From: a virus
DNA length: 23,867 nt
Direction: 5' to 3' (one strand)
IMG/VR virus record: IMGVR_UViG_3300010354_000656
Coordinates: 1-23,867 of that record
A model generated the notes under the pieces. It searched no databases and was not told the origin of the DNA. It worked only from the letters and a program-made list of their open reading frames with translations. This document shows, one piece after another, positions 2,477 to 5,757 of the stretch. A program made the position numbers and the translations under genes. Positions within the stretch are counted from its first letter, which is position 1; each line of letters begins with the position of its first letter.

Positions 2477-3175
2477 ATGATTAATAAGATTAAATGTAAC
2501 CTAAAACAAATTGACAATATACTTCACGTAGCCGATATACATCTTAGAAATTGGAAACGTCACGCAGAATTCAAAGAAGTATTCAATAAACTATTTGCTG
2601 CTGTTGATGCGTCACCAGCGAATACTATTGTCACTGTTGGAGGTGATATCGTACACGCTAAGACTGATATGAGTCCGGAACTTATAAAGATGGTTTCATA
2701 CTTTTTTAACGGATTAGCGGATAGGAGGCCTACAATTGTTATTACTGGTAATCACGATACGAATCTAAATAACCAAAACAGATTAGATGCTTTGACACCT
2801 ATTGTGGAGGCAAACAACCATCCAAACCTATTTTACTTACGAAATTCAGGATTGTATGAAATAGGTGATATACTGATCAGTGTTATGTCTTTATTAGAGG
2901 ATCCGACATCATACATCACTATTGATAAAATTCCAAATAAAGAAAAGTATAAACATCTTGTCGCTATGTATCACGGTACAGTAGCAAACAGTAAGGTTGA
3001 TAGTGGTATGACTTTGTCTCACGGACTGGGTTGGGAAGTTTTTAGAGGTTTTGATCTTGTGTTGCTTGGCGACATTCACAAAAGACAACTTATGAGTAGC
3101 GAGTGGTTTGAGGACATAGAAGTTGATGAGAGTGAAGTTGAAACATATTTGCAGCAAGGTTGGGAAAAAGCTTAG
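2477..3175 (+). CDS. SbcD/Mre11-type nuclease (T4 gp47-like), catalytic domain only
   Basis: 232 residues. All the metallophosphoesterase motifs are present: DIH (D20, H22), GGD (D57), GNHD (N92, H93, D94), YHG (H166) and GDIH (D199, H201). With SbcC this makes the ATP-dependent exo/endonuclease that processes DNA ends for recombination-dependent replication. SbcD-family proteins normally run on past GDIH to a conserved VGSLIQQNFGE segment and a capping domain (T4 gp47 is ~340 residues). Here the frame instead ends ~30 residues after GDIH, at TAG 3173, and the capping part begins in the -1 frame within the next gene. So the protein is a truncated half, or the two frames are joined by frameshifting (see 3160-3180). 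The tail VDESEVETYLQQGW is an insert that the family normally lacks at this point. Confidence 0.92.
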   Translation: MINKIKCNLKQIDNILHVADIHLRNWKRHAEFKEVFNKLFAAVDASPANTIVTVGGDIVHAKTDMSPELIKMVSYFFNGLADRRPTIVITGNHDTNLNNQNRLDALTPIVEANNHPNLFYLRNSGLYEIGDILISVMSLLEDPTSYITIDKIPNKEKYKHLVAMYHGTVANSKVDSGMTLSHGLGWEVFRGFDLVLLGDIHKRQLMSSEWFEDIEVDESEVETYLQQGWEKA

Positions 3176-3180
3176 AAATG
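3160..3180 (+). promoter_or_regulatory. candidate -1 frameshift or stop-restart site inside split SbcD
   Basis: In the SbcD frame the codons are TGG GAA AAA GCT TAG (3161-3175) with five consecutive A at 3165-3169. A one-base backward slip on AAA continues as AGC TTA GAA ATG, the frame that carries the missing SbcD C-terminus. Alternatively ATG 3178, two bases after the stop, could be used for coupled reinitiation. The heptamer is not a perfect X-XXY-YYZ slippery site, and no strong downstream hairpin is obvious. An error in the length of the A-run would look the same. Confidence 0.4.
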
Positions 3181-5757
3181 GTAAAATTAAAAAGAAAGAA
3201 TCCAGCGCTATGGTATGTAGGTAGTCTGGTTCAACAAAACTTTGGAGAGGCTTTTGAAGGGCATGGTTATGCTCTTTGCAATTTGCAAACACCAAAACAA
3301 GTTGAGTGTAATTTTGTAGATATACCAAATGATTGTGGATATTTTACGTTAGATGTTGTGGATGGTGTATTGCCACCCAACCTACCTATCACACCAAAGA
3401 CAAATGTACGATTAAGAATTAGAAACACATCACCAGCACAGCTGAAAAGAATACTTGCTACAATACGTAAGGAGTATAAAAATAGTGATGTAATGGTTCA
3501 AAAGCTGGATAAGGTGTCAGTTGGTGATGATAGTAAGTTGTTTGGTGAATCACTACACCAAGGTGACATACGTAATGTACAGTATCAGAATCAACTAATC
3601 ACAGACTATCTTACTCACTGTGGTGTAGATGACACATTAATGCAGACGATACTGCAGATAAACGCAAAGCTTAATCAAGAATTGCCACAAGGCGAAGTTG
3701 CACGCAATGTTGTGTGGAAGCCCAAGAAGTTTGAGTTTTCAAACATGTTTAGCTACGGTGAAAACAATGTTGTAAACTTCTCCAGTCTTGATGGTACTTG
3801 TGGCCTTTTTGCGCCAAATCACGCTGGTAAATCAGCAATACTCGATTCACTATGCTTTTGCTTGTTTGATCACTCTTTTAGAGCGAGTAAGGCAGAACAA
3901 GTACTTAATCGTAAGAAGGATGACTTCTGGTGTAAGTTTAATTTTGAGTTGGGTGGAATTGATTATTTTATTGAGAAAAAGGCATATAAGTATAAAAGTG
4001 GTCCTCTTAAAGGCAAGTTGCGTGTTGATATTGATTTTTGGTGTGTTAATGGTGAAGGTGAGACTGTATCGTTGAATGGAGAGCAAAGAAGAGACACTGA
4101 TAAAATCATACAATCTTACGTTGGAACCTTTGATGACTTTATATTAACAGCGTTATCATTACAGCAAAACAATTCCAACTTTATCGACAAGACGCAAGGA
4201 GAAAGAAAGGAGTTGTTAGCAAACTTTTTAGATCTTAAGATTTTTGATACATTATACGATCTTGCAAACAAAGAAACAAAAACAGCATCAGTAATACTTG
4301 AAGAGTATCAAAAACAAGACTTTGAGACTAAACTAGGTGACGCTGAAAGAGCTTGTGAGCTTAACGAGCAAAAACACACAGTAGCACAACAACAGTTGAC
4401 AGCAGTAGAGCGGGAGATGGAGGAGTTGACAAACACGTTGTTAGAATTAAACAAGCAACTACAACCGTGTAAAGCGGATGGTTTAAGTTTGAGTGTGTTG
4501 GAAGGAGACTTACAAGCAAGCAATACAAGACAACAACAAGCAACAACCGATCTACAAAAAGCAATACAGCAGCGTGATGTATGTCAACAAGAACTGCAGC
4601 AAGTGACAGACAAACTCGATGCATACAAGCAATCGTTTGACACAACACTACATACCCAGTATATAGCAGCTATAAAGCAAAAAGAAGAATTAGAAAGGTC
4701 ACTTAACACCTATAAAATAACTGTTAAATCTAAACTTGAAAAGTTAGAAAAGTTAGAAAAACATGAATATGATCCAAACTGTAAATACTGTGTTTCAAAC
4801 GTGTTTGTACAAGATGCCATTGCCACAAAAGGTGATCTTGAAAAGGATAAGACAGCAGTACAAGAGCTGTTAGATCAACTAAAGCAAATCTCAGATTTCA
4901 TTGTTCATAACGAAGACATACAAACACAAGCAGAGTCAATACAAAGTCTTATAGTAAATCGTAAGGAACTGATAAACCAGTTAGATAAGCACCAAAGTCT
5001 ATGTGATCGTTACGAATACGCGATCGATATTGAACAGCATAAAATTGAGAAAATCAAAGCCGATATACAAACTTACAGAGAAAGTTTAGCAGTTATTGAA
5101 GAAAACAAAAAAATACAAGCACAGATTCGTGAAGTAGAAAGAGCAGTCAGCCATAAAAAGATTGAGCTATCAAAACTTAACAACACTGTAAAGGATCTTC
5201 ACGGCAAAATTAAAGTAGCAGAGCAAACAATATCAGATTGTAACGCAGCCATCCAACACATGCAGCAATTGGTGGAGAAACAAGAAGCTTATGACTACTA
5301 CTGTAGAGCGGTGTGTAAGGATGGTATACCGTATGTTTTAATAAGTAAAGCCGTACCATACATTCAACAATACGTTAATAATATACTCAGTCAGGTGATT
5401 GACTTTACAGTTGAGTTGGAGACTGATGGTAAAAATATAAACGCGTTTATTTGTTATGACGATAATAAGTGGGCTTTAGAATTAAGCTCGGGTATGGAGC
5501 GTTTTATATCATCATTAGCTATCAGAATAGCTTTAATTAAAATTACTAATTTACCCAAGCCTGACTTCATTGCGATTGATGAAGGTCTTGGTGTATTAGA
5601 TAGTAGTAACCTTAACTCAATGCACACACTATTTACATATATGAAGGATATTTTCCGGTTTAGCTTGGTAATATCACATATTGATGTTGTAAGAGATATG
5701 GTTGATAATATAATTACAATAGACCGAAAAGATGATTTTAGTCACATATCTTGTTAG
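3178..5757 (+). CDS. SbcD C-terminal domain fused to SbcC/Rad50-type ATPase (gp47C-gp46)
   Basis: The frame opens at TTG 3160; ATG 3178 is the first ATG. Counting from 3160 there are 865 residues. Residues ~14-175 are the SbcD/Mre11 C-terminal part (WYVGSLVQQNFGE, HGYALCNL, NFVDIPNDCGYFTL). From ~186 the SbcC/Rad50 ATPase begins (KKFEFSNMFSYGENNVVNF). Its features are Walker A at 218-225 (APNHAGKS, Ala replacing the usual first Gly), a long Gln-rich coiled coil (~360-720) with the zinc hook C541-K-Y-C544 at its apex, ABC signature LSSGMERF from 775, Walker B FIAIDEG with D807/E808, D-loop VLD, and the switch histidine in VISHIDV. T4 gp46 is ~560 residues with no SbcD piece, so this is a real domain rearrangement. 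It would drive DNA-end resection with the upstream nuclease domain. Confidence 0.94.
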   Translation: MVKLKRKNPALWYVGSLVQQNFGEAFEGHGYALCNLQTPKQVECNFVDIPNDCGYFTLDVVDGVLPPNLPITPKTNVRLRIRNTSPAQLKRILATIRKEYKNSDVMVQKLDKVSVGDDSKLFGESLHQGDIRNVQYQNQLITDYLTHCGVDDTLMQTILQINAKLNQELPQGEVARNVVWKPKKFEFSNMFSYGENNVVNFSSLDGTCGLFAPNHAGKSAILDSLCFCLFDHSFRASKAEQVLNRKKDDFWCKFNFELGGIDYFIEKKAYKYKSGPLKGKLRVDIDFWCVNGEGETVSLNGEQRRDTDKIIQSYVGTFDDFILTALSLQQNNSNFIDKTQGERKELLANFLDLKIFDTLYDLANKETKTASVILEEYQKQDFETKLGDAERACELNEQKHTVAQQQLTAVEREMEELTNTLLELNKQLQPCKADGLSLSVLEGDLQASNTRQQQATTDLQKAIQQRDVCQQELQQVTDKLDAYKQSFDTTLHTQYIAAIKQKEELERSLNTYKITVKSKLEKLEKLEKHEYDPNCKYCVSNVFVQDAIATKGDLEKDKTAVQELLDQLKQISDFIVHNEDIQTQAESIQSLIVNRKELINQLDKHQSLCDRYEYAIDIEQHKIEKIKADIQTYRESLAVIEENKKIQAQIREVERAVSHKKIELSKLNNTVKDLHGKIKVAEQTISDCNAAIQHMQQLVEKQEAYDYYCRAVCKDGIPYVLISKAVPYIQQYVNNILSQVIDFTVELETDGKNINAFICYDDNKWALELSSGMERFISSLAIRIALIKITNLPKPDFIAIDEGLGVLDSSNLNSMHTLFTYMKDIFRFSLVISHIDVVRDMVDNIITIDRKDDFSHISC

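Follow-up and report, generated by a model that had tools for sequence, protein, structure and literature searches.

The window analysed here, a DNA stretch of 23,867 bp (IMG/VR record IMGVR_UViG_3300010354_000656, positions 1-23,867), carries an SbcD-SbcC nuclease gene that is in two pieces. A stop codon separates the catalytic and cap domains of SbcD, which are part of one polypeptide in unbroken relatives. SbcC is not encoded apart from SbcD either, since the SbcD cap and a helix-loop-helix precede it within one open reading frame (ORF). The explanation we favour, with a probability of roughly three in four, is that a fused gene was made two-piece behind the metal motif GDIH, and that a short tail on the first piece and a short head on the second bind the two into a functional nuclease of the Mre11-Rad50 type.

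Both ORFs lie on the plus strand. The first (2477-3175) encodes 232 amino acids, comprising a metallophosphoesterase domain and a C-terminal tail, and matched Pfam PF00149 (2.2e-11) and the PHROG family SbcD (PHROG 100; 9.9e-16); a PDB sequence search with this piece gave no match. All five metallophosphoesterase motifs (DxH, GD, GNH[DE], H and GHxH in a variant with Asp) could be mapped: DxH at 2534, GD at 2639, GNHD at 2747, the H of YHG at 2969 and GDIH at 3068. The last of them, within GDIHKRQ (3068-3088), lies directly upstream of the insert and, in 381 of 381 loci, has the form GDIH or GDVH. Where GHxH normally has its first His, Asp stands instead (GDxH), in the window (3068-3079) as well as in all 381 relatives examined. 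A preliminary description of this DNA had recognised an SbcD catalytic half with all metal motifs that ends about 30 residues after GDIH, and this was borne out: the chain ends 31 residues past GDIH, at the stop codon TAG (3173-3175). Its final part, the tail EWFEDIEVDESEVETYLQQGWEKA (3101-3172), is absent from unbroken fusions and, by alignment, homologous to the tails of other broken loci; a structural model of a relative predicts that it forms a strand and a helix.

The second frame is open from 3142 to 5757. The missing SbcD segment (VGSLVQQNFGE through IPNDCGYFTL) had been placed in this frame, with no stop before SbcC, and both the ORF and the profiles confirmed this placement (Pfam AAA_23, 3.3e-10; PHROG SbcC, 5.8e-45), so that the profile search proposed at the outset returned SbcD and SbcC matches for the two proteins. 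The first ATG is at 3178, 2 bases past the TAG. The cap-SbcC chain is thus real, but the length of 865 residues first given to it, which counts from TTG 3160, is probably not: the chain is likely to start at ATG 3178 and to have 859 residues (3178-5757), because relatives start there and because a spacing of 2 nt between neighbouring genes is typical of the window (9300/9303, 16781/16784, 17451/17454). TTG 3160 is a possible start that fits less well. Read from ATG 3178, the chain opens with a head of 14 residues, MVKLKRKNPALWYV (3178-3219), which resembles the heads of other loci and is the predicted partner strand of the tail. It continues with the SbcD cap, homologous to that of unbroken fusions (from GSLVQQNFGE), and the helix-loop-helix (together 3220-3708, the latter from about 3580). 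The SbcC/Rad50 ATPase (3709-5754) was recognised from profiles, motifs and the fold of a modelled relative; its Walker A motif is at about 3820-3834, its zinc hook CKYC at 4780-4791, its signature at 5476-5505 and its Walker B motif at 5566-5586.

What this gene looks like when it is whole became clear from its relatives. When viral contigs were scanned with the window pieces as queries, the two scans gave about 140 loci, and further scans with diverse queries brought the pooled set to 425. In nearly all of the first 140 or so, SbcD and SbcC lay in one frame and in one ORF. With fusions called by an ORF length of at least 700 amino acids, 181 distinct unbroken SbcD-SbcC fusions were present among the pooled loci; complete fusions in closer relatives have about 1,055-1,078 residues. 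Microcystis phage Mel-JY01 (PP395634) encodes the same fusion as one coding sequence. The fusion is also present in seven records of metagenome-assembled bacteria or archaea, although some of these are perhaps phage contigs. A 698-amino-acid SbcD-SbcC fusion ORF was also seen in CP070664 (L436, a WOR-3 bacterium record of 2.8 Mb), perhaps in a prophage or as a rare cellular copy. A conventional boundary between separate gp47 and gp46 genes, which the preliminary description had considered for relatives, was not seen among them; they have full SbcD-SbcC fusions instead. Since the unbroken fusion is the rule, the comparison indicates that the join is the normal state of this phage family and that the break inside SbcD is derived. 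The preliminary description was therefore right that SbcD is split after its last metal motif with the remainder attached to SbcC, but it missed the order of events: fusion came first and the break later. An AlphaFold model of one fusion (L156; mean predicted local distance difference test score (pLDDT) 85.5, predicted template modelling score 0.52) places the two helices of the helix-loop-helix at residues 352-365 and 370-390, ends it at about residue 390, and starts SbcC at residue 397, equivalent to residue 1 of Rad50. The SbcC part matched 3av0_B with a Z score of 31.4 and a root-mean-square deviation (rmsd) of 3.8 over 359 aligned residues. In this model the fusion is end-to-end, with a very short linker.

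It might be supposed that the break in the window is an isolated accident. The same architecture was sought in related phages, and about 58 distinct loci besides the window proved to be broken at the same site, just behind GDIHK. Scans were partly queried with broken genes, so these counts give no estimate of frequency. Because all these loci share the site and have a homologous tail and head, the comparison argues that the window break is more than chance. Upstream pieces end in a recognisable pattern, for example EEIEVDESELEKYLxxGWE followed by a stop, and downstream pieces begin with another, for example MSKKIKIKxKKPxxAYPGS. Tails such as NQILQKYKYEEIEVDESDVDEYLKNGWQIK (L155) and QYLAGRDIELEIDESELSNYPEAEVIG (L171), each followed directly by a stop, and heads such as MSKKIKLFRKKPEVRYVGSTIQQN (L155), MTKIKLFRKKPTIAYPGS (L356) and MGKKIKIKVKKPWIAYPGT (L315) illustrate this, and the window conforms to it with its tail EWFEDIEVDESEVETYLQQGWEKA and head MVKLKRKNPALWYVGS. 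When the six frames of every fetched locus, which covered the flanks of SbcD loci only, were searched with a tail profile, no other gene with the tail was found, and hence no second target gene. Among named phages, a tblastn search with tail peptides matched only LR756508.

The main competing explanation is that the window really holds one continuous fusion with an insert of about 92 nt in frame, and that the break is mimicked by a one-base error of assembly or sequencing or by a private mutation. In two natural proteins the tail and head are indeed read in frame without a break, namely in the 1,079-residue fusion of L156 and in L159, an SbcD without SbcC, and the window itself sits among unbroken fusions. 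However, in-frame inserts are known from these two loci as against about 59 that are broken. In addition, broken loci elsewhere have their stop and ATG where the window has them (its stop is two residues past GWE), and a spacing of 2 nt from stop to start is typical of the window genome. We therefore consider an error or private mutation unlikely.

The content of the gap varies among broken loci. Some pieces are a few bases apart or overlap by 4 nt, and others have a Vsr-type homing endonuclease gene or an unrelated ORF between them. In a large group resembling L171 most pairs overlap by 4 nt (ATG, GTG or TTG on TGA) or abut, and in L154 the gap measures 69 nt. The gap ORFs of L155, L150 and L162 match homing endonuclease/HNH profiles, with Vsr/MTES_1575-like or TnsA-like domains; that of L139 has an HNH profile match up to the contig end, and a similar zinc-finger ORF was seen by inspection in the gap of L300. 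LR756508, from an uncultured phage, is a broken form with a 305-amino-acid endonuclease in the gap. The break in the window has no homing endonuclease gene, whereas L155, L150, L162 and L139 have one at the same site. In L155 (670-727; TTGTATTAG...CTAATACAA) and in L162 (4120-4181) the stretch from the SbcD stop to the start of the endonuclease gene contains an inverted repeat, which possibly forms a hairpin that controls the endonuclease gene.

Other contents of the broken gene were noted in passing. In a marine group (L158, 4128-5054; L160, L161, L164, L168, L174 and L224) the interruption holds a conserved ORF of about 309 residues, which had a weak DUF354 match, looked glycosyltransferase-like by eye and belongs to no clear family. 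In a sister group SbcC is unfused; there the SbcD cap forms its own ORF of 75-82 residues in L157 (4125-4355) and L162 (5082-5306), while in L159 (3398-4351) a single chain comprises the catalytic part, the arm and the cap, again without SbcC.

Homing endonucleases of the Vsr type occur in phage introns and between the halves of split inteins. It might thus be asked whether tail and head are the ends of an insert that is a split intein or a self-splicing intron. The dimensions speak against this, since the window insert has about 92 nt and the L155 gap leaves fewer than about 60 nt outside the endonuclease ORF. No Rfam match was obtained in seven loci including the window. Tail and head with about 40 residues together are too short for an intein, and an intein domain was not matched; moreover, L156 and L159 carry the insert within their translated reading frames. 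An intron or intein is accordingly highly improbable.

Ribosomes could also join the two frames into one full chain, by programmed frameshifting or by bypassing. The frames of the window overlap over 3142-3175, where there is a short run of A, and bypassing is known from T4 gene 60, where insertion of a homing endonuclease affected the gene. By inspection, however, no canonical slippery heptamer was seen in the window overlap. All three possible relative frames are represented among the pairs of ORFs at broken loci, and in many pairs the ORFs lie apart, with gaps of up to about 300 nt or a whole gene between them. These facts argue that the two pieces are made separately. The variation of relative frame between loci makes programmed frameshifting unlikely as a general solution, and we give recoding of either kind in the window very little credence.

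If tail and head are parts of functional proteins, they should be kept as such. Over 22 independent pairs of broken loci the ratio of nonsynonymous to synonymous change (pN/pS) was 0.33 for tails, 0.33 for heads and 0.22 for the catalytic core, values that are rough because synonymous change is near saturation. The ratio of 0.33 in both shows that tails and heads are under purifying selection and kept as protein. The window pieces compared with L002 gave 0.16 (SbcD) and 0.22 (SbcC), the same constraint as in unbroken pairs. This bears on the suggestion that the break is simply gene decay, which inactivated SbcD and left a cap-SbcC remnant that is passively kept. A break directly behind a catalytic motif would suit decay. 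Against it, the metal motifs and both ORFs are intact, the pieces are constrained as unbroken pairs are, and broken forms with conserved tails and heads persist over whole clades. Decay is hence a most unlikely account.

A structural role for tail and head is suggested by the unbroken proteins. The AlphaFold model of L159 (mean pLDDT 89, about 90 in the insert) as a whole has the SbcD/Mre11 fold (7dog, Z 23.9, rmsd 3.2, 247 aligned; 4lty, Z 23.6). Its phosphoesterase and cap are on one chain, while in the window the cap sits on the second chain. The insert comprises a strand (201-212), a helix (213-221), a short strand (225-228) and a further strand (234-245). Tails align onto the first strand and the helix and heads onto the last strand. 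This alignment, with L159 as query, was used because that behind the L156 model left tails and heads unaligned to the insert, so that the arm there rests on one sequence. From the order of the predicted elements in L159, tail and head together are expected to form a long beta-hairpin arm tipped by a helix. The cut in broken loci would fall at the tip of the arm, and each piece would then supply one side.

Trees were used to place the break in time. In the tree of the SbcD part the window grouped with ten unbroken fusions (Shimodaira-Hasegawa-like approximate likelihood ratio test 97), and in the tree of the cap and SbcC part with seven (98). Because both trees nest it among unbroken fusions, the window break is young. 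The two parts fall in the same clade, which leaves the cap-domain exchange once proposed for this locus without support, and exchange of the cap by recombination was rejected. Changes between broken and unbroken states number 14 in the SbcD tree and 12 in the SbcC tree; strongly supported branches force at least 6 and at least 8, respectively. The trees cannot separate gain from loss of the break, and some unbroken members may be reversions. Endonuclease carriers stand near unbroken genes (L155 and L353 with L360; L357 with L369). Many changes of state at the same codons, together with site-specific endonucleases found there, would be the expected product of homing.

The history that fits best may be put as follows. 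The fusion of a whole SbcD to SbcC would have come first, and the break inside SbcD, at a homing-endonuclease site, later. In the ancestor of the window a fused gene was presumably converted to the split form by homing, after which the endonuclease would have been lost from this lineage. Two proteins would now be translated from the adjoining ORFs, possibly by coupled translation: the SbcD catalytic domain with the tail, and the head with cap and SbcC. The strand and helix of the tail and the strand of the head would be the two sides of the beta-hairpin arm that rejoins the pieces, and this pairing of strands between chains would add to contacts between phosphoesterase and cap that are present anyway. 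We infer that the pieces assemble and that the nuclease is active.

Several points weigh against this history, besides the roughness of the pN/pS values. Binding of the pieces and nuclease activity rest on inference, and the order of elements, rather than coordinates, served to assign strand pairing in the arm. The origin by homing is deduced from other lineages, the window itself being without an endonuclease. The tether of the cap to SbcC is not always kept, the cap being a separate small ORF in L157 and L162. Finally, a search for a second contig with the exact junction of the window found none, which makes an assembly error a possibility; a search for near-identical phages of the window likewise found none.

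A bolder suggestion, to which we would give somewhat less than even odds, is that a selfish endonuclease element evolved a matched tail-head pair that it writes onto both halves of the gene it invades. The split form would spread by homing, stay after the endonuclease is lost and become standard in whole phage lineages. If this is true, insertion behind the SbcD active site costs the phage little. It was proposed earlier, from one phage enzyme, the ribonucleotide reductase of Aeh1, that an essential gene, once broken, can be rescued by tails that arise together with a mobile endonuclease. The nrdA gene of Aeromonas phage Aeh1 is split by mobE and functional (PMC2988022). The SbcD-SbcC family offers dozens of natural replicates, with or without the endonuclease, and makes the idea of rescue by tails directly testable.

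The surroundings of the gene fit a phage. A DNA primase gene lies upstream and terminase and portal genes downstream, so the window derives from a tailed phage. Shine-Dalgarno sequences were seen at few of its gene starts (1491-23242), and the regions upstream of these starts are A/T-rich. A/T-rich upstream regions with few Shine-Dalgarno sequences are also a feature of Bacteroidota phages.

Within known nucleases, E. coli SbcCD, T4 gp46-gp47 and archaeal Mre11-Rad50 have nuclease, cap, helix-loop-helix and ATPase in the same order as the window, and the L159 and L156 models match 7dog, 4lty and 3av0 in fold. In those systems, however, there are two separate genes whose boundary falls where SbcD ends and SbcC begins, while here the genes are fused and the fusion is cut again between the SbcD catalytic domain and the cap. 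Mel-JY01 (PP395634) and LR756508 belong to the same family, with 34-43% identity to the window; the Mel-JY01 coding sequence is annotated only as an AAA domain containing protein and LR756508 is without annotation. A search of the open-access literature found neither an SbcD-SbcC fusion nor a split SbcD described in any paper. A single-chain Mre11-Rad50 as the norm of a large phage family thus appears to be undescribed, as does the repeated cutting of such a fusion at one site with conserved complementary ends. A single chain holds the two subunits at a ratio of 1:1 and lends itself readily to structural studies.

The closest parallels are found among broken phage genes. Friedrich and co-workers (2007) reportedly described nrdA-a, mobE and nrdA-b of Aeh1 as a genes-in-pieces ribonucleotide reductase, and Crona and co-workers (2011) are said to have found the nrdA tails necessary for activity. 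There too a free-standing homing endonuclease gene splits a phage gene into two ORFs with added tails, and a coding region broken at a conserved site relative to unbroken relatives is a trait the window shares. The enzyme and the kind of endonuclease differ, however, and dozens of loci share the SbcD break, most of them lacking an endonuclease, in a gene that fuses two subunits. The Aeh1 tail (NC_005260) contains a loosely similar stretch, KSEVDKFKL, which we do not count as homology. Dassa et al. (2009) reportedly found fractured phage genes that combine split inteins with homing endonucleases of the Vsr-like kind. These also are genes of DNA metabolism in which the break falls at a conserved site and a Vsr-like endonuclease gene separates the halves, but in the present case there is no intein, tails and heads are short, and the halves would stay separate chains. 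The gene of the window, built on a single-chain Mre11-Rad50 architecture that is apparently unreported, is therefore best filed with the genes-in-pieces.

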